The position numbers and the translations under genes are program-made. Positions 6,950-35,771 of a stretch of DNA of 64,000 nt are shown in pieces (positions within the stretch are counted from its first letter, which is position 1; every line of letters starts with the position of its first letter). A model generated the notes under the pieces. The model was not told the origin of the DNA and searched no databases. It saw only the letters and a list, made by a program, of their open reading frames with translations. The DNA is from an uncultured Bacteroidales bacterium (GTDB taxonomy: Bacteria; Bacteroidota; Bacteroidia; Bacteroidales; P3): NCBI GenBank assembly GCA_900316055.1, contig ONBK01000005.1, positions 115,570 through 179,569 on the forward strand, read 5' to 3'.

Positions 6950-9900
6950 ATGACCAAACTGACGGAATCGGACATTGAGCAGATGACCATCGAGCTGCTG
7001 GAAGACAGAGGGTGGAAGTCTCTATATGGGCCGGAGATTGCGCCGGATGGAACTACGCCGATGCGGACATCGTTGGGCGAGGTGGTGCTGCGCGAGAAAC
7101 TGGAGGCGGCAGTGCGGCGACTCAACCCGTCGCTGCCTGCTGCGGTACTCGACGAGGCCGTCAAGACGGTGCTGCGCATCGGCTCCACCGACCTGCTGGC
7201 CGACAACGAGCAGTTCCACGAACTACTGACACAGGGCGTGACGGTGTCGGTGTATGAGCAGGGCGAGGAGCGCGGCAAGAAGGTGTGGCTGGTGGACTTC
7301 GACGACCCGTGGAACAACGACTTCGCGGTGGTCAACCAGTTCACCGTCATAGAGAACGGTCATAACCTGCGGCCCGACGTGGTGCTGTTTGTCAACGGCC
7401 TGCCACTGGTGGTGATGGAGCTGAAGAATGCCGCCGACGAAGAGGCCACCATCACCGCCGCCTACAACCAGATAGAGACCTACAAATCACAGATACCGTC
7501 ACTGTTCATCTACAACGAACTGATAGTTATCTCCGACGGCCTGGAAGCCCGTGCAGGCTCGCTGTCGGCAGGGCTGAGCCGCTATGCGGCCTGGAAGAGC
7601 GAGGACGGTGAGACCGTGGCCTCGCATCTGGTGGGCGAGCTGGAGGTGCTGCTGCGCGGCATGCTGAACCGAGAGACACTGCTCGACCTGGTGCGCGCCT
7701 TCACCGTCTTCGAGAAAGACAAGCACGAGGACAAGGCCACCGGCCAGCTGACCATCACTACGGTGAAGAAAGTAGCCGCCTACCACCAATACTATGCCGT
7801 CAACAAGGCCGTGGAGTCCACGTTGAGAGCCACGGGCATCAACAGCGCAATGCCCAAAGCGGCAGAGTCGCCACAGAACTTCGGCTTCAAGACCGTCAAG
7901 GAACAGCAGACCGGCGACCATCGTGCCGGTGTGGTGTGGCACACGCAAGGTAGTGGCAAGTCGCTCTCGATGGTGTTCTACACTGGCAAGATAGTACAGC
8001 GGCTGAACAACCCCACCGTGGTGGTCATCACCGACCGCAACGACCTCGACGACCAGCTCTTCGAGACCTTCGTGGCCTCCAAGCAACTATTGCGTCAGAC
8101 ACCCGTACAGGCCGACAGCCGTGAGCACCTGAAACACCTGCTGCAGGTGCAGTCGGGCGGCGTGGTCTTCACCACCATACAGAAATTCCAGCCCGAAGAG
8201 GGCAACCAATACGACAGGCTTACCGAGCGCAACAATGTGGTGGTGATAGCCGACGAGGCTCACCGCACGCAGTATGGCTTCGGCGCCAAGACCAAGGAGG
8301 TGCGCAACGAGGCCGACGAGGTGGTGGGTTCGGAAATCAAGTACGGCTTCGCCAAATATCTGCGCGACGCGCTGCCCAACGCCACCTATATCGGCTTCAC
8401 CGGCACGCCCATCGAGCTGAGCGACAAGAACACCCCTGCCGTCTTCGGCAACTACATCGACGTCTACGACATCGCACAGGCAGTGGAGGACGGCGCCACG
8501 GTGCGCATCTACTATGAGAGCCGTCTGTCCAAAGTGGAACTGAGCGCCGAAGGACGCAAGCTGGTGGAAGACCTCGACAAAGAACTGCAGGTGGACGAGA
8601 TGGACGATGTGCAGAAAGCCAAAGCCAAATGGACACAGCTGGAGGCTCTTATCGGCAGCCCCAACCGTATAAAGAACATAGCAAGAGACATCGTGGAACA
8701 CTTCGAGGCACGCCAGCAGGTGTTCGAAGGCAAAGCCATGGTAGTGGCCATGAGCCGAAGAATTGCTGTGGAACTCTACGACGAGATTGTGAAACTGCGC
8801 CCTGAGTGGCACAGCGACGACCTGCGGAAGGGTGCCCTCAAGGTGGTGATGACCACCTCGGCCAGCGACGGCCCCGCCATCGCCAAGCACCACACCACCA
8901 AGGCCGACCGACGCCTGCTGGCCGACCGTATGAAAGACCCCGACGACGAGCTGAAGCTGGTCATCGTGCGTGATATGTGGCTAACCGGTTTCGACGTGCC
9001 CTGCCTGCACACCCTCTATATCGACAAACCCATGCGGGGACACAACCTGATGCAGGCCATTGCCCGCGTGAACCGCGTATATAAAGACAAGCCCGGTGGC
9101 TTGGTGGTAGACTACCTCGGCATTGCCTCCGACCTGCGCGAGGCGCTGTCGTTCTACTCCGACAGCGGCGGCAAGGGCGACCCCACCCAGCAACAGGAGC
9201 AGGCGGTAGCTCTGATGCAGGAGAAACTGGAGGTGGTGCAGCAGATGCTCCACGGGCTCGATTACAAGCAATACTTTGCATCCAACACTGCTGGCAAGCT
9301 GTCGTGGATACTCAAGACCGAAGACTTTGTGCTGGGACTTGACGACGGTAAGAATCGGTTTGTCAATGAGGTAACCGCCTTGGGCAAAGCCTTTGCCCTT
9401 GCAGTGCCCCACGAGGCAGCCATGGAGGTGAAAGACGAAGTCTCCTTCTTCCAAGCCGTCAAGGCGCGACTCTGCAAGTTCGACGCCAAGTCGGGAGGGC
9501 ACACCAACGAAGAGATAGAGACCACCATCCGACAGGTGATAGACCAAGCCCTGGTGTCGGAGCAGGTGATAGATCTCTTCGATGCCGCCGGCATCAAGAA
9601 ACCCGACATCTCCATCCTCTCCGAGGAGTTCCTGCTGGGACTGAAAGACATGGAGCACAAAAACATTGCCCTCGAGGTGTTACGCAAGCTGCTGAACGAC
9701 GAGATAAAAAGTCGCATGAAGACCAACCTCGTCGAGGGGCGCACGTTGATGGAGATGCTCGACGGCGCTATCACCCGCTACCACAACAAGATAATCTCCG
9801 CTGCGGAAGTTATCGACGAACTTATCAAACTGAGCAAGCATATCGTCGAGAGCGACAATACGGCACAGGAGATGGGTCTAGAACCTTACGAATACGCTTT

Positions 9901-10162
9901 CTACACCGCCGTGGCCGACAATGAGAGTGCCCTGGAACTGATGGGTAAGGAGAAGCTGCGCGAGCTGGCTGTGGTGCTCACCGAGACCATACGCAAAAAC
10001 TCGACCATCGACTGGACCATTAAGACCACAGTGAGAGCCAAGATGAAAGTGGCTGTAAAACGACTGCTACGTAAGTATGGCTATCCGCCCGACATGGAGC
10101 AGTTGGCCACCGACACCGTACTGAAACAGGCTGAGCTGATAGCAAATGAACTAGTAAAATAA
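6950..10162 (+). CDS. hsdR: type I restriction endonuclease/translocase (R subunit)
   Basis: 1070 residues, start preceded by AAGGAGGA at 6936-6943. The N-terminal nuclease has [11 protein letters not shown] then VMELKNA (D and E-x-K residues). The SF2 translocase follows: Walker A TQGSGKS near 330, DEAH box [10 protein letters not shown] near 435, TGTP motif near 485, and the late [13 protein letters not shown] motif near 705. A helical C-terminal domain binds the methylase core. It moves DNA with ATP and cuts unmethylated DNA at a distance. Complete and intact; last gene of the operon. Confidence 0.97.
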
Positions 10163-12045: not shown

Positions 12046-12098
12046 TTTTTTCATTCCAATGTCAGATTTCGGTTTCATGAGGGGTAATGTATAGATGT
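12046..12098 (+). promoter_or_regulatory. upstream motif P1 of sigma-TM gene 1
   Basis: T-run, CATTCC, then GTCAGATTTCGG at 12061-12072 and GGGGTAATGTATAG at 12081-12094, directly before ATG at 12099. The same order of elements occurs at 13256-13311 and 16303-16365. Spacing from GTCA to the G-rich box is 20 nt here, 18 and 17 nt in the others. CATT..CC can pair with the later GG..AATG. Confidence 0.6.
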
Positions 12099-13238
12099 AT
12101 GAACCCACATGAGCCATTCACCGTTTTTCTGCGCAGCCACTCCAATCTCATCTGGAGCATGTGCCGCGATGCCTCACACGGCAACTGGGAGCAGTGCCGA
12201 GATTTGTTCCAGGATGTGTCGTTGCGACTCTGGCAACATTTCGACGAGCTACGTCCTGACGCCCAGCCACACGAAAGAAAGGCCTGGGTGGAATGGCAGA
12301 CGCGCCATGTACTGGAACATGCTGGACGGCGGCAAAGACCCGAACCCCTAAGCGAACTACCGGAACAAGTCGACGGAGACGCTTTGGTCGATGTCGAGAT
12401 CCGCACACTCATCAACGACCTGTTGGTGCAGATGCAGCCCGACGAACGGCAGTTGGTGCAGATGCGTCTGGAGGGGTATTCGGCCAACGAGATTGCCAAA
12501 GAGATGGGGCTCAGTCGCGACGCTGTGTATCAGCGTATGCACAGGGCATTGGCGAAAGCCCGCAAAGTGTTGCTGGTGTTGTTTTTGTTGCTTGTGGCCA
12601 GCACTGTTGCCATCGCTGTGGTGCCACAGTGGCGCCATCGGGTTTTCGGCGGCGGCGAGCCGGCGGTGGAGGATACGCTCCCTGTCAGTGTCCCTGCCGC
12701 CCTCTCCCCTGCCCTTTCTGTTGTCGGCGACAGCATAGGGGACACCGTCGTTACGCGCCGCACATGGATTCCACCGGAGCCCCTTTCCCATCTCGTCACC
12801 GTTGCCGACACGGTGTTGCCTGTCCCCGTGCCGGGCATTGCCGGGCCCTGTGGGTGCTCCGACAGCGCCCGTGGCGGCGGGCAGCGTGCCGACTGCGTTC
12901 CCTTCGACGATACCGACGAGGAGCAGCAGGAAGAGGAAGCCGATGTGACCATCCGTGTGGTGGGGAACAACATCGTGGTGGAAGGCGTCAGGGACGAACG
13001 TGTCGATGTCTTCGATTCTCGAGGGCGCCTGGTGGCCACAGCGCGGTGCAACGACCATTGCATGCTCACCATAGGGATGCAGGACCACTCCTATTCACCA
13101 ACCACTACTTCAGGAACCAACGCCTTCTGGGTACAAGTGGGAGACCGCCCGCGGCAGCAGGTCTTCATCAAGCAACTCCCCCGAGGGAATCCGACACATC
13201 CTATCCCTGCCTCAACCCAGCGGATATACATGTTCTAA
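12099..13238 (+). CDS. membrane-tethered ECF-like sigma factor with periplasmic C-terminal domain (sigma-TM 1)
   Basis: 379 residues from ATG at 12099, chosen because it aligns residue by residue with the start of the paralogue at 16366; an ATG 12 nt earlier is possible. Residues 1-85 resemble sigma region 2 (CRDLFQDVSLRLWQHFDEL). Residues 104-156 are a good sigma region 4 (LQPDERQ-like helix, EGYSANEIAKEMGLSRDAV, MHRALAKARK). One hydrophobic helix follows at once (157-176), then the juxtamembrane VVPQWRHRVFGGG shared with the paralogue, and a Pro/acidic stretch. The C-terminal part (about 283-358) resembles the T9SS-like end of BspA proteins (NNIVVEG, VDVFDSRGRLV, VQVGDRP) with 20 extra residues. 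Basic residues before the helix predict sigma inside, tail outside. No anti-sigma gene is adjacent. Function is inferred. Confidence 0.85.
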   Translation: MNPHEPFTVFLRSHSNLIWSMCRDASHGNWEQCRDLFQDVSLRLWQHFDELRPDAQPHERKAWVEWQTRHVLEHAGRRQRPEPLSELPEQVDGDALVDVEIRTLINDLLVQMQPDERQLVQMRLEGYSANEIAKEMGLSRDAVYQRMHRALAKARKVLLVLFLLLVASTVAIAVVPQWRHRVFGGGEPAVEDTLPVSVPAALSPALSVVGDSIGDTVVTRRTWIPPEPLSHLVTVADTVLPVPVPGIAGPCGCSDSARGGGQRADCVPFDDTDEEQQEEEADVTIRVVGNNIVVEGVRDERVDVFDSRGRLVATARCNDHCMLTIGMQDHSYSPTTTSGTNAFWVQVGDRPRQQVFIKQLPRGNPTHPIPASTQRIYMF

Positions 13239-13255
13239 TCCATATCATCTAAATC

Positions 13256-13311
13256 TTTTTTTTCATCCAATGTCAAATTTTGGGTGTTAGGGGTGTATTA
13301 TATTTGTAGAA
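13256..13311 (+). promoter_or_regulatory. upstream motif P2 of the BspA-like gene
   Basis: T-run, CATCC, GTCAAATTTTGG at 13272-13283, GGGGTGTATTATATTTGTAG at 13290-13309. TATATTTG at 13299-13306 fits a TAnnTTTG box, but TTTG lies only 16 nt before it, shorter than usual. The leader to ATG at 13345 is about 35 nt. Confidence 0.65.
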
Positions 13312-13344
13312 GAACATGAAAACATCAATTAAAACCCACAAACA

Positions 13345-15144
13345 ATGAAACACCACATTATCAAATCCCTCGCTGCCCTTTTGGTGGCGGCAAGCCAGCC
13401 AGCCGTTGCTTCCGCTCAGTATTTCGAATCGGACGGCATCGTCTATGGCATCACATCTGGGCAGACCGTCGAAGTGTTGTCGAACTATTATTTGCACAAC
13501 ACCCCCTACAGCGGCTCCATTGTCATTCCACAGACGGTGGAATATGACGGCAACACCTACACAGTGACGGCACTGGCTGAAACTGCTTTCGAGAGTTGCA
13601 CCACCATGACCAGCCTCACCCTGCCGCCGACCATCCGCAGTATCGGGTCGCATTGTTTCTACAACTGTTCTTTCACGACGCTGCAGCTGCCCGACTCGTT
13701 GCGCCGCATCGACGACTGCGCTTTCCTCTACTCCAGCATCTCGTCGCTGCACCTGCCTGCCTGTTTTGAAGAGTATGACGAGTGCTCTTTCTGGGCAAGG
13801 AACCTGATGAGTATCACGGTGGACGAGGCCAATCCCCGCTACCGTTCCATCGACGGCTGGCTCTACAGCAAGGACAGCCTGACGCTCTGCATTGTGCCCA
13901 GCGGGGAGACGGGAACCGTCGCGGTGCCACAATTCGTACAGCATCTCGGCAAGATGGCTTTCGGCTTCTGCAGCCACATCACCTCGGTCACACTGCCCGA
14001 AGGATTGGTTTCCATCGGCGACTTCGCCTTCAACTGCTGCGCGACGGTCGACGGTATTGTCGTCCCCTCGACGGTGACACACATCGGTGTCAACCCCTTC
14101 TCCTACTGCCCGCAGATGAACAACCTCTCCATCGCCAGCGGCAACACACATTATGTGATGGACGGCCTGATGGTATACAGCAGCGACTACGACACGCTGG
14201 TCTCGTGCCACAAGTCGGGTACCACCGTGACGCTGAACCCCAACGTGAAAGTCCTCGGCGGCTTCGAGAACAACACCTGGGTGAGGAACATCGACATCCC
14301 GGCGGGGGTGACCGACATCCTCGACAACTGCTTCAACGGCTGCGCCATCACCACCATCGCGCTGCCGGCGCACATGAATTCGATAGGCCGTTTGGCCCTT
14401 GCCACCAACGACAAGCTCACCCACGTCACCATGCCGCAGACGCTGCGCTCGATGGGCGAGAAGGCCTTCGAGTGGTGCATGGGGCTCACCTCCATCGTTA
14501 TCCCCGACTCGCTCCGCGTCATCCCCAAGGAGGCTTTCAACTCCTGCCCACGCCTCACCTCCGTCACCTGGGGCAACGCCGTCGAGGAGATAGGATATGC
14601 GGCCTTCTGGGCGATGTCGGCCATGGCCACCTCGGCTGTGCACCTCGACCTGCCGCCGACGCTGAGGAAACTCGACGACTATGCCTTTGCTGCTTGCGAG
14701 AACAACCTGCGGTCGGTCACCGTGCGTAGCCAGCTCGACACGATGGGCGAAGCCGTGTTCCGACACGCCAACCTCAACCGCATACGTTTCTCCGCCGCCG
14801 TCCCCCCTGTCGTCACAGGTGAAGGACCGCTCTACGATATTGGCCGCCTCGACAGCATCGTCGTCCCCTGCGGAAGCCTCAGCGCATGGCTGGCCGACAG
14901 CTATTGGGGGCAGTTCGCCGACCAAATTGTCGAGGACTGCAATATGGGCATCGGCGACCCCAACGCTAACGCCGTCAACATCTACACGCTCGGCGACCGC
15001 ATCATCGTCGAGGGAGCCGAGGGCGAGACCGTCCGCATCTTTGACATCACCGGTCGCAGCGTCCGCAATGAGGCACTGCACACAGGTGTCTATATAGTGA
15101 AGGTCGGCGACCGTCCAGCCCGCAAAGTGGTGGTGACAGAATAG
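13345..15144 (+). CDS. BspA-like leucine-rich repeat surface protein with T9SS-like C-terminus
   Basis: 599 residues. Signal peptide 1-24 (MKHHIIKSLAALLVAASQ, then AVASAQ). From about 50 to 510 there are repeated BspA/LRR_5 units of the form IP-x-x-V/L-x-x-IG-x-x-AF-x-x-C. The last 65 residues (DRIIVEGAEGETV, IFDITGRSV, GVYIVKVGDRP, KVVVTE) form a short T9SS-type sorting domain without the usual YPNP start. BspA-family proteins are secreted or cell-surface adhesins that bind host or matrix proteins. It lies directly downstream of sigma-TM gene 1 and shares its upstream motif. Its N-terminal region matches the fused domain of the protein at 16366-18759. Confidence 0.9.
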   Translation: MKHHIIKSLAALLVAASQPAVASAQYFESDGIVYGITSGQTVEVLSNYYLHNTPYSGSIVIPQTVEYDGNTYTVTALAETAFESCTTMTSLTLPPTIRSIGSHCFYNCSFTTLQLPDSLRRIDDCAFLYSSISSLHLPACFEEYDECSFWARNLMSITVDEANPRYRSIDGWLYSKDSLTLCIVPSGETGTVAVPQFVQHLGKMAFGFCSHITSVTLPEGLVSIGDFAFNCCATVDGIVVPSTVTHIGVNPFSYCPQMNNLSIASGNTHYVMDGLMVYSSDYDTLVSCHKSGTTVTLNPNVKVLGGFENNTWVRNIDIPAGVTDILDNCFNGCAITTIALPAHMNSIGRLALATNDKLTHVTMPQTLRSMGEKAFEWCMGLTSIVIPDSLRVIPKEAFNSCPRLTSVTWGNAVEEIGYAAFWAMSAMATSAVHLDLPPTLRKLDDYAFAACENNLRSVTVRSQLDTMGEAVFRHANLNRIRFSAAVPPVVTGEGPLYDIGRLDSIVVPCGSLSAWLADSYWGQFADQIVEDCNMGIGDPNANAVNIYTLGDRIIVEGAEGETVRIFDITGRSVRNEALHTGVYIVKVGDRPARKVVVTE

Positions 15145-15157
15145 CCCGTTTGTAACG

Positions 15158-15245
15158 CTGAGAGCTTTACATTGAATCACTGAGAGCTTTACAACGAATC
15201 ACTGAGAGCTTTACAATGAATCACTGAGAGCTTTACAAACTGATA
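15158..15245 (+). repeat. four tandem 22-bp repeats downstream of the BspA-like gene
   Basis: Copies start at 15158, 15180, 15202 and 15224, consensus CTGAGAGCTTTACANTGAATCA; the fourth diverges at its end. They begin 13 nt after the stop codon. A further small palindrome (AAAGGGTG/CACCCTTT) lies near 15299-15316. No ORF is seen in 15145-15382; the region carries these repeats and the leader of the next gene. Confidence 0.8.
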
Positions 15246-15382
15246 CGGAAACAGCACTGAAAACCAGCACGATAAAAACACCCCCAACAAAACTACTAAA
15301 AAGGGTGCCACCCTTTGCCTCGCTTTTGTTGCCACCCTTTACCTCGTACAAGTTTTGAATCATTTTTAAACCCTTATTCAAT

Positions 15383-16297
15383 ATGACAACACACAACATC
15401 ATCAAATCCCTCGCCGCCATTGCCCTGGGCGCAATGCTGCTGACGGGCTGCGAGAAAGACAAAAACATCGATGAGCCGGCCCAGACAGAGACGACAGACC
15501 CCTTCGATGCCAACGGTGCCAGCAAGGCGCTCTTCTCGGTGGCGGCGAACAGGCAGGTGCGCATCTCGCGGGGCAACCTGCAGTATCAGGCCTCGACCGA
15601 CACCTGGCGTTTCGCCGCGAAGCAGTATGAGGTGATGGGAGCGGCCAACACCCAAATCTCTCCAAGCAACGAAGGCTGGATTGACTGTTTCGGCTGGGGT
15701 ACCAGCGGATGGGAGAGTGGCGCCAACGCCTATCAGCCGTGGTCCATCAGCGTGGACGGTGCCGACTATCAACCCGGTGGCAACTGGCAGAACGGGCTTT
15801 TCGGCAATTATGCCAATGCCGACTGGGGAGTGTACAACCCTATCTCGAACGGCGGCAACCAGACAGGCATGTGGCGCACATTGAAAAATACGGAGTGGGC
15901 TTACCTCTTTGGCGGCGGGAAACGAGTCAACAGGTGGGGACGGGCCTCTATTGAAGGTCGTTACAACGGCATCATCCTCCTGCCCGACGAGTGGACGGCT
16001 CCCGAGGGTATCGACTTCTCACCCGCTCTTGTCGGTTTTGTTTCCAATGCCTACACTCTGGAACAATGGGAGCGTATGGAGGCGGCAGGTGCCATCTTCC
16101 TGCCTGCCGCGGGATACAGGGAAGGGACTGCTTACGGCACACAAAATGAATTTGGAGCCTACTGGTCCGTCTCTCCCCTCAACGCCGATTATCCTGATTG
16201 CGCTCTCAGTCTCATCTTCAACGAAAACGAGCTCCATTGCAATGCCGGCGTCAGCCGCAGCTACGCTTTTTCGGTGCGATTGGTGCAGGACATATAA
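15383..16297 (+). CDS. lipoprotein with DUF1566/FISUMP-like domain
   Basis: 304 residues. Lipoprotein signal peptide with LTGC (Cys23), whose start (THNIIKSLAA) resembles that of the BspA-like protein upstream (HHIIKSLAA). The mature part has FSV...VRISRGNLQYQASTDTWRFA, a WIDCFGWGTSGW segment, WGVYNPISNGGN and WRTLKNTEWAYLF, a pattern common in Bacteroidales surface lipoproteins related to the FISUMP/Lcl_C fold; biochemical role unknown. It lies between the BspA-like gene and the second sigma-TM gene on the same strand and probably belongs to the same locus. Confidence 0.82.
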   Translation: MTTHNIIKSLAAIALGAMLLTGCEKDKNIDEPAQTETTDPFDANGASKALFSVAANRQVRISRGNLQYQASTDTWRFAAKQYEVMGAANTQISPSNEGWIDCFGWGTSGWESGANAYQPWSISVDGADYQPGGNWQNGLFGNYANADWGVYNPISNGGNQTGMWRTLKNTEWAYLFGGGKRVNRWGRASIEGRYNGIILLPDEWTAPEGIDFSPALVGFVSNAYTLEQWERMEAAGAIFLPAAGYREGTAYGTQNEFGAYWSVSPLNADYPDCALSLIFNENELHCNAGVSRSYAFSVRLVQDI

Positions 16298-16302
16298 AAT
16301 TT

Positions 16303-16365
16303 TTTTTTCATATTTTTGCACCTCCGATGTCAGATTTTGGTGTCGGAGGTGTATTATATTAGTAG
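16303..16365 (+). promoter_or_regulatory. upstream motif P3 of the sigma-TM/BspA fusion gene
   Basis: T-run, TATTTTTG at 16311-16318, then a perfect 9-bp inverted repeat CACCTCCGA/TCGGAGGTG (16319-16327 and 16343-16351) enclosing GTCAGATTTTGG at 16329-16340, then GTGTATTATATTAGTAG up to ATG at 16366. The stem arms differ from those of P1 and P2 while the enclosed block is conserved. Confidence 0.65.
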
Positions 16366-18759
16366 ATGAGCCGTCATAGTGCATACACGGAATTGCTGCA
16401 GCGCCACCGGAAGATGGTGTGGCGTCTGTGCTGGAAGTATGCCCGTGGCCATTATGACCGCTGTTGCGACCTGGTGCAGGAGGTTTCCATTGCTTTGTGG
16501 ATTCATTTCGACGACCTACGACCTGACACGTTACCCGAAGAGGAACGTGCTTGGGTCCACTGGTGGGCCCGTTCCGTGCTCGACCTGCAGCGACGCAAGG
16601 AGCGTCCGTCGCTGCTCCCGTTGACCACCGTGGCCGACACTATGGCTGCCGACAACCCTCTGGCGCAGCAGGAAGAGATGGAGCACCTGATGGCGGCCCT
16701 CAGTCCTGAGGAACAGCGTTTGGTGAAATTGCACATCGAGGGTTACCGTTCCCGAGAGATTGCCGAGATGATGGGCCTCGGCCGCGATGTCGCCTACCAG
16801 CGTATCCACCGTGCACTGGTGAAAGCCCGCAAGGCGATGCTGGTGGCATTTCTGTTGCTTGTGGCCACCTCCATCGCCATTGCCGTGGTGCCGTCGTGGC
16901 GGCAACGGGTCTTCGGCGGTGGCGCGGCTGAGGAGGAAGGTGCAATCCCCGTCAGTGCCCCGAAGCTGCGCTCCTCCACCCTGCCTACGCTTGTCGACAG
17001 TGTCTGTGCGACAACTCCCGTGTCCAAGAGAGAGGTCAACTGGGAGTATGTGGGTGTAGGACTGGAGGGATGGTCCGTCACTTGGTGCCGCAACGACAGT
17101 TCCATCAGCTATACCCGCACCCCCGGTGGCCTTATCGCCACAGTGCCACGGGCTTTCGTGGAGAACGACACCTTAAAAATCGACAGTATGAATATTTCAT
17201 TGAAACGGACCGCTACGACGGCGGCCTTGATGGCTTTGACCACCGCCCCCCAGGCGCAGGTGGCGTACGATTTCCAGTCGGTCACCCCGCAGGGCGACAC
17301 CCTCTTCTGCACCGTCACCGACTCGGCGCAGCACCATGTCAGCGTGCGCGGCGACGAGAGCGTGTGGAATGCACCCTACATCCACTACAACGACACGCTG
17401 GTCATTCCCTCCTCGGTGGAGCACAACGGCGTGCAGTTCACCGTCAGCGCGCTGGGCGACAGTGCCTTCTACAACCACGGCGAAATTACGGCGGCGGTCA
17501 TACCAGTCTCCGTCACCGCCATCGGAGGGATGGCCTTTGCCAGTACCGGAATCAACGAACTTGTGGTACCCGACAGTGTGAACACCATAGGCGCCAAGGC
17601 ATTCGGTCTCGTTCCCAATGTCATCTACCACGGCGCTGCCACCGGTGCCCCGTGGGGAGCCTTGACGGTGAACGGATTTGAAGAGGACGGCCTCTTTTAT
17701 CTGGACAGCAGCCGTACCGCCGTCACCGCCTGCCGGCCATGGGTGACGCAGGCGGTGCTGCCAGCCTCGATACGCTCCATCGGTCGCTACGCCTTCAGCC
17801 TTAGTCAGCTGGAAAGCATCACCCTGCCGGAAGGGTTGGAAACGATAGGCAACTCGGCTTTCCAGAGTTGCAGCCGGCTGGGCTCGGTGGTCATTCCCTC
17901 GACGGTGACGGAAATCGGCCGCTATGCCTTCTACAACGCCTTCCGTACCAGCAGCGAAGCCACGGTGACCATCGCCGACGCCGAATGCAGTATCGGGCAG
18001 GGAGCGTTTTGCTATAGCAACATGAGTGCCATCGACCTCGGCAGCCGCGTCACCTCCATCGGGCAAGATGCCTTCGCCTCGCTGGGCCGCACCGACTCCA
18101 TCATTGTGCCCAACAGCTGCACCTACCTCGCCGCCCGTGCCTTCTGTTACAACTACTCTGGTTGCCTGAGGAAGGTACATCTGCCCGACAATCTCGACAC
18201 TATCCGCGACGAGCTGCTGCACGGCTGCACTGGGCTGGAGGAGGTGAACATCCCGCAGTCGGTGGTCTATATCGGCGAGATGGCCTTGGCCGAGTTGTTC
18301 AGTGTAATGGAGCTCACGCTCCCCGCCGGTCTCACCTATATCGGGCCGTGGGCTCTTGGCTCCTGCACGAACATCAGTGAGATGACGAGCCTCGCCGTAG
18401 TGCCACCGCAAGCTTGTGACAATTCGTTCGAAGACCTGAACGCCAACCTTATGCTCACCGTGCCGTGCGGCAGTGTGGAGGGCTACCGCACCGCCCCCTA
18501 CTGGGGGGATTTCCAGAATATCTACGACGACTGCGAGGCTGTGCCCGAAGTGGAGCCTTCCGAGGTAATCATCAAGGCCAGTTGGCGCCGCATCATCGTC
18601 GAAGGTGCCGAGGGCGAGGTGGTGACGGTCTATGACGCCGAAGGCCGCCAAGTGACCGACGCCATCGGACGAGCCCAATGTATCCTGCGGGTACCCGATG
18701 CGGGCCTCTATCTGGTGAAGGTCGGCAAGAGGCCCGCCGTGAAGGTCGTCAGCCGGTAA
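16366..18759 (+). CDS. sigma-TM 2: ECF-like sigma factor, membrane helix and BspA-like domain in one protein
   Basis: 797 residues in one open frame. Residues 1-156 match sigma-TM 1 throughout: region 2 (CCDLVQEVSIALWIHFDDL) and region 4 (LSPEEQRLVKLHIEGY, REIAEMMGLGRDVAYQRIHRA). The membrane helix lies at the same place (157-175), followed by VVPSWRQRVFGGG. After a linker (185-274), residues 275-298 (MNISLKRTATTAALMALTTA, then PQAQ) look like a complete signal peptide. BspA LRR_5 repeats follow (about 340-700), then a T9SS-like end (IIVEGAEGEVVTVYDAEGRQV, LVKVGKRPAVKVV). The gene therefore looks like a sigma-TM gene fused to a following BspA gene, the order still separate at 12099-15144. An internal start at 17188 could also give a secreted BspA protein. 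Assembly error is not excluded but there is no frame break. Confidence 0.85.
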   Translation: MSRHSAYTELLQRHRKMVWRLCWKYARGHYDRCCDLVQEVSIALWIHFDDLRPDTLPEEERAWVHWWARSVLDLQRRKERPSLLPLTTVADTMAADNPLAQQEEMEHLMAALSPEEQRLVKLHIEGYRSREIAEMMGLGRDVAYQRIHRALVKARKAMLVAFLLLVATSIAIAVVPSWRQRVFGGGAAEEEGAIPVSAPKLRSSTLPTLVDSVCATTPVSKREVNWEYVGVGLEGWSVTWCRNDSSISYTRTPGGLIATVPRAFVENDTLKIDSMNISLKRTATTAALMALTTAPQAQVAYDFQSVTPQGDTLFCTVTDSAQHHVSVRGDESVWNAPYIHYNDTLVIPSSVEHNGVQFTVSALGDSAFYNHGEITAAVIPVSVTAIGGMAFASTGINELVVPDSVNTIGAKAFGLVPNVIYHGAATGAPWGALTVNGFEEDGLFYLDSSRTAVTACRPWVTQAVLPASIRSIGRYAFSLSQLESITLPEGLETIGNSAFQSCSRLGSVVIPSTVTEIGRYAFYNAFRTSSEATVTIADAECSIGQGAFCYSNMSAIDLGSRVTSIGQDAFASLGRTDSIIVPNSCTYLAARAFCYNYSGCLRKVHLPDNLDTIRDELLHGCTGLEEVNIPQSVVYIGEMALAELFSVMELTLPAGLTYIGPWALGSCTNISEMTSLAVVPPQACDNSFEDLNANLMLTVPCGSVEGYRTAPYWGDFQNIYDDCEAVPEVEPSEVIIKASWRRIIVEGAEGEVVTVYDAEGRQVTDAIGRAQCILRVPDAGLYLVKVGKRPAVKVVSR

Positions 18760-35071: not shown

Positions 35072-35563
35072 TCACTGCACCTTGGTGTAAACGTAGGTAT
35101 CAGTGCCCATCACGCGCTCCATATCGGGGTTATCCGTATCGTGAGTGATGGTCTGGGTGGCGGCATCATAGATAAATTCGGCAGTTTCAACATATTCTTC
35201 TCCCGACCCAGCATCTGTCCGAATGATGGTAACCAGAATTTTGTTGTCTTGAGTGGTATAGGTGAAGTCGAACGTCCGCTCCCTCTCCTGATTGGCGGAG
35301 GGATGTTCAGGTACTTCAGCGACGATCATCTCGAAATACTCTCCATTCACTGTATCCTTGAAATCGAGTATGCTCTCAAGGTTGATGTAAATGGTGACAC
35401 CTTGTTGCACAAACGAGTTCTCCATCGTGCAGCGCCACGAGGTGCCCGCCAGACCCTCTACCGTTAAGGGGACAGGCTCGTTGTCTTTCTCGCAAGCGGA
35501 AAACATGGGGGTGAGGACTGATGCCACCAGCAGCATCGCAAAAAGTCTGAATGCTTTTTTCAT
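35072..35563 (-). CDS. lipoprotein, lipocalin-like
   Basis: 163 residues. Lipoprotein signal with FSAC (MKKAFRLFAMLLVASVLTPM, FSACEKD). The mature region (LAGTSWRCTMENSF, ILDFKDTVNGEYFEMIV, FIYDAATQTIT) shows the lipocalin-like strand pattern common in this order. A minus-strand TATCTTTG at 35704-35697 may drive it from about 135 nt upstream. Role unknown. Confidence 0.8.
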   Translation of the reverse strand: MKKAFRLFAMLLVASVLTPMFSACEKDNEPVPLTVEGLAGTSWRCTMENSFVQQGVTIYINLESILDFKDTVNGEYFEMIVAEVPEHPSANQERERTFDFTYTTQDNKILVTIIRTDAGSGEEYVETAEFIYDAATQTITHDTDNPDMERVMGTDTYVYTKVQ

Positions 35564-35771
35564 TTTTTGTTTTTTTTATTGTTAAACAAAAGTTTCTATA
35601 ATACAATACACATTTTTAGGGTGAAATATGACAGGTGGGGAGATTTTTTAATAACGGTATATTCTGCCATATTGTTTTTGTTCATTTTTCAATTTGCAAA
35701 GATACGAAGCATTTTTGGATTGGCAAAATATTTTTTATACAATAATCTGTTGCAGGAAGCGTTATGGGGGT

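Follow-up and report, generated by a model that had tools for sequence, protein, structure and literature searches.

Membrane-tethered sigma factors of uncultured Bacteroidales: an ECF sigma gene apparently fused to its membrane partner

How could a sigma factor serve RNA polymerase when its own polypeptide is anchored in the membrane? This question is raised by a locus in a 64,000-nucleotide window (the whole stretch of DNA analysed here, G000:C31:115570-179569) on contig ONBK01000005.1 of an uncultured Bacteroidales bacterium. Two genes of its forward strand, sigma-TM 1 (12099..13238, 379 amino acids (aa)) and sigma-TM 2 (16366..18759, 797 aa), encode extracytoplasmic function (ECF) sigma factors in which sigma regions 2 and 4 are followed by a membrane helix and an exported part. 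Between them, on the same strand, lie a BspA-like protein of 599 aa (13345..15144; leucine-rich repeats (LRR) of the LRR_5 family at 3e-70, signal peptide by eye) and a lipoprotein-like protein of 304 aa (15383..16297, lipobox by eye), as an earlier note on this DNA had described. We consider it probable that each tethered protein is a working ECF sigma fused to the remnant of a membrane partner, silenced by its tether, freed by proteolysis and then driving its own gene and genes for surface proteins. The domains, the fusion origin, the distribution and the promoter-like element with the genes behind it are read from sequence.

Both outer proteins are ECF sigma factors as judged by profile and by modelled fold, which bears out the earlier note. 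Sigma-TM 1 matched TIGR02937 (sigma70-ECF) at 5e-24 and Sigma70_r4_2 at 3e-11. Region 2 is the weak point of its assignment: Sigma70_r2 gave 1.6e-4 with hmmscan, below the Pfam cut-off, and 25.4 bits in the genome search, above the cut-off of 24. In sigma-TM 2 the corresponding matches were TIGR02937 at 1.9e-16, r4_2 at 9e-8 and r2 at 5e-7. The sequence of sigma-TM 1 also matched the solved SigL at 9.4e-10, and Foldseek searches with AlphaFold2 models returned ECF sigma factors among the matches for both proteins. Profiles, together with the sigma-TM 1 model and its fold matches, find sigma regions 2 and 4 only, as expected of an ECF factor. The predicted function is binding of core RNA polymerase and initiation at promoters that carry the element described below. 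The start of sigma-TM 1 was taken at 12099; an in-frame ATG at 12087 falls within the -10-like part of that element.

The single membrane helix claimed at residue 157 was found in both proteins. The hydrophobic maximum begins there (Kyte-Doolittle 3.1 in sigma-TM 1, counted from 12099, and 2.8 in sigma-TM 2), and the helix covers about residues 157-176, that is 12567..12626 and 16834..16893 on the forward strand. In the AlphaFold2 models the sigma helices are present and one continuous helix leads from the region-4 recognition helix into the membrane segment, over residues 140-174 in sigma-TM 1 and 140-183 in sigma-TM 2, the latter with a low predicted local distance difference test (pLDDT) score in this part. 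The sigma-TM 1 model was built from 24 sequences, with a mean pLDDT of 73.7 and a predicted template modelling score (pTM) of 0.32; past a low-confidence linker, its C-terminal beta domain reaches pLDDT 90-96 in blocks 281 to 320. The sigma-TM 2 model has a pTM of 0.45 and is poor at 166-306.

A survey of genomes for such proteins and their neighbours, which the earlier note had proposed, shows that the two are members of a larger set. Genome contigs of about 85,000 species were scanned by pattern and tblastn, and 62 loci were obtained. Sixty of them are titled uncultured Bacteroidales or Bacteroidetes; the remaining two are from a Sphingobacteriales bacterium (L143) and Belliella (L144). By open frame and hydrophobicity 38 of the 62 are tethered; a contig end truncates four of the 38, and 11 exceed 700 aa. 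These 38 fused frames come from 36 accession prefixes, and the tethered members found are all from assemblies of uncultured organisms. Locus titles that name a source point to ruminants (sheep, yak, deer, goat and water buffalo), and RUG in the titles presumably means rumen uncultured genome. A profile search at E 1e-40 in 295 genomes of the order (184 genera) gave no match outside the window's own genome. Within the genus, a relative at E 1e-30, tethered or soluble, was found in 43 of 59 genomes, and a tethered one in 24 of 59 (match beyond model position 180, frame of at least 239 aa, rows read). The named loci (L numbers) and the genomes with G handles overlap partly, so the counts are not summed. 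The own genome holds a third tethered sigma of 323 aa (C24:63091), which adjoins another BspA gene on the opposite strand. At one locus (L118:6001-6783) the tethered sigma ends at 260 aa, just short of the LRR region present in its close kin.

Across the 41 tethered proteins (the 38 named loci and three from the own genome) the geometry is nearly constant. The distance from YQR in the recognition helix to PxW at the outer membrane face is 32 residues in 39 of the 41 (33 in L102 and 31 in L120), and there is no linker between region 4 and the membrane helix. Lysine and arginine are commoner on the sigma side of the helix in 38 of the 41, which argues that the sigma domain lies inside; the proteins are probably of type II topology, with a cytoplasmic N-terminus. 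No adjacent anti-sigma gene had been noted, and none is seen in the list of open reading frames. Pfam and NCBIfam scans of the tethered proteins gave, among the matches listed, neither a zinc-finger anti-sigma-like domain nor FecR or any other anti-sigma model.

Where the tether came from can be read at five loci in which the sigma is separate (L110, L113, L115, L116 and L123). There, a soluble sigma of 155-163 aa is followed by a membrane-partner gene, and the two genes overlap by ATGA (offset -4) in four of the five; in L116 the offset is -71 from the start taken. When the parts behind region 4 of LRR-type fused proteins were made into a profile, it matched all five split partners, at 2e-196 in L115 and at 1e-52 to 2e-68 in the others. 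The match begins at partner residue 43 in four and at residue 61 in L116. A second profile, restricted to 50 residues of the membrane segment and its juxtamembrane stretch, matched as well (L113 3e-12, L115 8e-10, L116 4e-9, L110 6e-7, L123 7e-5). These E-values apply to a file of 21 proteins; neither profile matched the other 16, which are also downstream membrane proteins. Moreover, the same flanking GNAT-like and short-chain dehydrogenase/reductase (SDR) genes are found at 16 tethered loci and at four of the five split loci, the SDR gene of L123 being on the opposite strand from the rest. A second chromosomal locus lies behind phoH-ispE.

By this comparison of sequences, the tether is the remains of a separate membrane-partner gene, and the fused protein corresponds to the sigma plus the partner's residues from about 43 onward, the cytoplasmic N-terminus of the partner having been lost. 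The stretch missing from fused proteins reads, for example, MKxxxIDNLIxRLQGFDxxELQRxMTDGLDEWCQRR, and its MTDGLxEW part recurs in the small membrane partners of sister sigmas. Presumably this lost N-terminus acted as an anti-sigma, because of its position, the gene overlap and the topology. As for the sister soluble sigmas (L012, L013, L126-L139), they are followed by an overlapping membrane gene of 78-168 aa with an MTEGLxEW motif. Since sigma and partner are separate in the sister groups, they were probably separate first and fused later. On one versus several fusion events, the approximately unbiased (AU) test is borderline: a single tethered clade received a p of 0.044 with 62 rows and of 0.471 after seven rows were dropped (tethered L108, L120 and L122, soluble L141, L132, L133 and L138), all of which sit on long end or inner branches. 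The full tree groups tethered L108 with the small-partner sigmas.

The juxtamembrane motif VVP-x-WR-x-RVFGGG is indeed common to sigma-TM 1 and sigma-TM 2, and it is mostly retained in their kin. It had been put forward as a pointer to cleavage. For this it carries no special weight: the motif is also found in separate partners, for example as SVVPQWRPAFFSGG in L113, so its conservation alone marks no cleavage site, and a cleavage site specific to the fusion was rejected on the same ground.

The exported part comes with or without LRRs. Sigma-TM 2 holds a whole LRR_5 region (2.8e-51) that the earlier note had missed, and its model matches solved Bacteroides LRR proteins (4fs7); no LRR_5 match was found in sigma-TM 1 by the Pfam scan. 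The C-terminal tails were compared as three profiles. One (A6) holds the short sigma tails, another (A7) the LRR-type tails with the tail of the window's BspA protein and two split partners, and a third (A8) seven type IX sorting domains encoded in the own genome. With hhalign, A6 and A7 matched at 99.3% (E 3.6e-20, the E-values of these tail comparisons being pairwise and not database ones) and form one family, which sustains the claim that the exported part of the sigma resembles the tail of its BspA neighbour. Against A8 they matched at 80.3% and 94.7%, respectively.

The beta domain of sigma-TM 1 (residues 284-357, 12948..13169, forward strand) resembles the C-terminal domains (CTDs) of type IX cargo by Foldseek and hhalign. 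It matched the RgpB CTD 7pq4 at E 6e-4, but with a root-mean-square deviation (rmsd) of 11.4 over 104 columns, the cargo CTD 5hfs at 1.6e-3 (rmsd 2.9 over 68 columns) and the RemA CTD 8gl6 at 2.9e-3 (rmsd 3.9); it matched immunoglobulin-like DUF3244 folds as well. The tail of sigma-TM 2 (18568..18756, forward strand) superposed on 7pq4 with an rmsd of 2.7 over 73 columns at E 0.015, and Pfam gave for it only DUF6383 at 3.5e-4, below the cut-off. Neither window sigma tail nor the BspA tail was among the 64 TIGR04183 hits of the own genome (E 0.01), and the PNP start of the A8 domains is missing from the window tails. The cleavable N-terminal signal peptide of type IX cargo is also missing from the sigma-TM proteins, which carry the sigma domain and membrane helix in its place. 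The own genome encodes SprA (2390 bits). Taken together, sequence and models suggest an exported tail folded like type IX sorting domains, for which the role of a sorting signal is only a candidate.

In most LRR-type members a signal-peptide-like stretch precedes the LRR region; in L091 the scan maximum is elsewhere. Such a stretch is seen inside L112, L119 and sigma-TM 2 (17194..17256, forward strand; weak here and stronger in kin), and also in the separate partner of L115. It looks as if a secreted BspA gene had joined the locus. The stretch may be a relic, or it may serve as a second cleavage site or as an internal start, which in sigma-TM 2 might yield a free BspA protein; no promoter element was found there.

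A shared promoter-like element, TGTCAGATTT followed by 13 or 14 bases and GTATTATA, lies upstream of the tethered genes. In the window it precedes sigma-TM 1 as TGTCAGATTT-N14-GTAATGTA (12060..12091, two mismatches to the general form), the BspA gene as TGTCAAATTT-N14-GTATTATA (13271..13302, no mismatch) and sigma-TM 2 as TGTCAGATTT-N13-GTATTATA (16328..16358), all on the forward strand, so the link between the sigmas and BspA that had been suspected from their adjacency gains support. Shuffled sequence gave 0.04 matches per window for the general form with two mismatches. The consensus is TGTCARATTT-N13/14-GTAWTRTA. Two patterns were searched, a loose one (TGTCARATTTN{12,15}GTAW) and a strict one (TGTMARATTTN{13,14}GTAWTRTA) that takes in the TGTCAR and TGTAAR forms; the strict one was used for statistics because the loose one is unspecific outside the genus. 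With either pattern, the element was found within 250 bases upstream of 35 of the 41 tethered genes, in two of them as TGTAAG (L107 and L122). Within the same distance it was found at none of the 17 other soluble relatives; one of these, L142, is cut and gives no verdict.

In the own genome the loose pattern gave seven sites and none when reversed. The seven precede three tethered sigma genes, two BspA genes, one lipoprotein-like gene and one CarbopepD_reg_2 gene. This lipoprotein-like gene, on C15, is a relative of the one at 15383-16297, for which no element was found upstream. Kin of the latter recur next to tethered sigma genes, and it has no Pfam or NCBIfam match. Across the genus the loose pattern gave 74 sites in 34 of 59 genomes against six in the reversed control, and in other families 32 sites in 24 genomes against 17. 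Script labels for the 72 distinct loose sites were sigma 27, BspA 16, CarboxypepD 6, lipoprotein 2 and other 21.

With the strict pattern, 21 of 57 genus genomes together contained 50 sites, whereas the 23 genomes from other families contained none; the reversed control yielded one hit over all 80. Its 43 TGTCAR sites were labelled sigma (20), BspA (14), CarboxypepD (4), lipoprotein (2) and other (3). When rows were re-read, the BspA-labelled L065 proved to be a fused sigma-LRR gene and the sigma-labelled L200 a soluble one; the three "other" sites precede two genes with a lipobox by eye and a CarboxypepD_reg-like gene that heads a split sigma operon (L189). All 43 thus precede a sigma gene or a gene for a likely exported protein, by homology or appearance, with signal peptides judged by eye, the BspA labels of L201 and L217 resting on 26-30% identity and L192 being cut at 40 aa. 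Among the split loci, L110 and L113 carry the element, and L123 a TGTAAG version, before genes that lead into sigma and partner; in L116 it stands directly before the sigma, and none was found at L115. The -10 part reads GTAWTG in five of five strict sites before sigma genes of the sigma-TM 1 clade versus one of the 38 others, a bias that may be explained by descent at one locus. Six of the seven TGTAAG strict sites lie some 20-30 bases before a matched sigma start, five at soluble sisters (own C12 included) and one at a tethered gene (G078). This TGTAAGATTT version just upstream of five soluble sister sigmas includes the own-genome site G000:C12:31247-31278, and none was seen at the named soluble loci. 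The tethered sigmas appear to control their own genes and a handful of surface proteins, and by strong motif evidence the element is a candidate autoregulated promoter shared with the predicted target genes.

The fused genes were also compared for selection in 13 chosen pairs. The ratio of nonsynonymous to synonymous divergence (dN/dS) was 0.09-0.50 in the sigma part, 0.16-0.63 in the exported part and 0.07-0.61 in the membrane part, except for 1.32 in L095/L099. In L097/L100, dS was 0.05 in the sigma part and 0.90 in the exported part, and in L117/L129 the reverse was seen (0.68 and 0.28). This contrast hints that exported domains are exchanged by recombination.

How, then, would such a protein work? 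In the account that we favour, a sigma gene was fused to the adjoining membrane-partner gene with loss of the partner's first ~43 residues, its cytoplasmic part. The product would run from the region-4 recognition helix through the membrane helix to an outside sensor, a CTD-like domain that in some members follows a BspA-type LRR region. In the uninduced cell the tether would keep the sigma domain from a productive holoenzyme. A surface or secretion-related signal, sensed by the exported part, would lead to trimming and then to a cut by an RseP-type site-2 protease. The freed sigma would transcribe its own gene and the small set of BspA, lipoprotein-like and CarboxypepD_reg genes. Release by intramembrane proteolysis is suggested by analogy: it is favoured because IutY, of similar layout, is freed by Prc and RseP (PMC5411451, in the text available). 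An RseP homologue of 469 aa is encoded in the own genome, in the region G000:C17:19467-22957, about 1.6 kb from another ECF sigma gene with a small membrane-protein gene downstream. Several observations weigh against this account. RseP homologues occur almost everywhere (all 14 control genomes match, nine above the cut-off), so that their presence says little. The juxtamembrane motif predates the fusion, and Pfam finds only LRR_5 in the split partners L115 and L113. With the patterns used, the element is missing from the 250 bases before six of the 41 tethered genes, eight of the 24 genus genomes read as having tethered genes are without a strict site, and five soluble sister sigmas carry the TGTAAG version, so the element is not confined to tethered sigmas.

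Instead of being released, the tethered sigma might act uncut at the membrane, as do the membrane-bound regulators ToxR and CadC; the outside domain would then shift the rod made of the recognition and membrane helices, allowing or blocking the holoenzyme. The cytoplasmic partner segment is already gone, which leaves nothing to remove, and the sigma and membrane helices are continuous in the models with the constant spacing noted above. That spacing may merely reflect a constant membrane span, however, and region 4, with hardly any linker behind it, would need to contact both DNA and RNA polymerase at the bilayer itself. IutY forms that retain the membrane segment, moreover, need RseP for activity, and we regard uncut action as unlikely. 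If the fusion made the sigma constitutive, control would have been lost with the partner's cytoplasmic segment and the tether would be a remnant. Region 4 does run directly into the membrane helix in all 41 proteins, with no space for such a segment, and one truncated form exists (L118, 260 aa); yet the exported parts are under purifying selection and the juxtamembrane region is conserved, and a constitutive sigma seems to us quite improbable. We give still less credence to a small partner that is encoded elsewhere and inhibits in trans. Separate sigma genes with MTEGLxEW-type membrane partners are numerous in the genus (L012 and L013 in the own genome), and small partners occur in 10 tree rows, but they sit beside their own sigma, and the element just before small-partner sigmas, where found, is TGTAAG and not TGTCAG.

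It is hardly credible that the fusions are dead genes or assembly errors. Their restriction to assemblies of uncultured organisms and the four of 38 frames cut by a contig end would fit such a view, which is disfavoured by the number of frames and of accession prefixes, by the mostly purifying selection and by the conserved element. Within the favoured account of a sigma freed by proteolysis, a more speculative and on balance doubtful idea is that of a secretion gauge: the CTD-like tail, akin to that of the BspA protein with the element before its gene, would be a bait for the type IX machinery. Machinery left free of cargo would engage or pull the bait, the tethered protein would be cut, and the sigma would renew the surface proteins. 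If this were true, the sigma would imitate the sorting tail of its own product and thereby fit output to secretion capacity.

Elsewhere in the window, a second lipoprotein-like gene of 163 aa (35072..35563, reverse strand) has a near-match of the element upstream (35602..35633, reverse strand, two mismatches, 38 bases 5' of its ATG) and may belong to the same regulon. The group of sigma, BspA and lipoprotein genes is flanked by genes that we take, from their sequences, to be ispE-like and fructose-bisphosphate-aldolase-like. Positions 6950-10162, on the immediate upstream side of the phoH-ispE-sigma locus, encode a 1070-aa protein that by eye resembles HsdR of type I restriction systems.

Among known systems, as given in the available portions of the papers cited, the closest is IutY of Pseudomonas putida (ECF243 subset), a sigma/anti-sigma hybrid and the only experimentally characterised sigma of this kind (PMC8999054). 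It too is a single polypeptide in which sigma2 and sigma4 are followed by one membrane segment and by a regulatory part in the periplasm, with sigma4 next to the membrane segment. Its cytoplasmic part is predicted to hold sigma2 (8-84) and sigma4 (100-164) only (PMC9249621, figure legend), so IutY is likewise without an evident cytoplasmic anti-sigma tail. The bare sigma-membrane layout is for this reason not new, and absence of an anti-sigma domain was dropped as a point of novelty. IutY-168, which lacks the membrane segment, is active; the longer truncations require RseP (PMC5411451). Related layouts have been predicted in Actinobacteria: ECF52 (SCO4117), ECF48 and ECF53 carry a C-terminal membrane helix and an outside part, with proteolytic activation proposed (PMC8999054). 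Theirs include a zinc-finger, likely anti-sigma, and one or two membrane helices (PMC8999054), whereas here region 4 meets the membrane helix directly. The claim of a sigma tethered in one polypeptide stands, by profiles and by charge bias, with the correction that sigmas joined to a membrane segment were known before.

The same review lists sigmas that carry regulatory extensions, some of them membrane-located and presumed to be released by proteolysis, and its available text has no word beginning "bacteroid" (PMC8999054); the term "membrane-bound sigma factor" has been applied to HasS (PMC3621798, in the text available). A literature search, whose coverage did not extend to subscription papers, found, among the titles listed, no paper on the present proteins. 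SigP of Porphyromonas gingivalis, which belongs with PorXY, is likewise a Bacteroidales ECF sigma tied to type IX secretion, but its partner is the response regulator PorX and its targets are por genes (PMC5445135, in the text available). Here the possible tie of sigma control to type IX secretion consists only of the CTD-like tail and of likely exported proteins among the targets. The LRR_5 region of sigma-TM 2 is like that of BspA-like surface proteins, with the difference that it is joined to a sigma through a membrane helix and does not stand behind a signal peptide.

What is new to us is the lineage, the CTD or LRR sensor, the regulon and the survival of split forms. Since split and fused versions exist in nature at one chromosomal place, the step from two genes to one is directly open to study. 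For uncultured gut Bacteroidales the analysis also provides a promoter element, with a small set of adhesin-like and other envelope proteins as the candidate regulon. In IutY the periplasmic part is of FecR type and responds to the TonB-dependent receptor IutA. The tethered sigmas carry in its place a CTD-like domain, which some combine with BspA LRRs; a TonB-dependent receptor was not noticed among the adjoining genes, and split versions survive at the same locus; lineage and targets differ as well. By analogy, the tethered sigmas may work like IutY without its FecR-like feature. They would then offer a possible one-protein route from cell surface to genes, in which sigma signalling was reduced to one protein in a second, unrelated lineage with a sensor unlike that of IutY.

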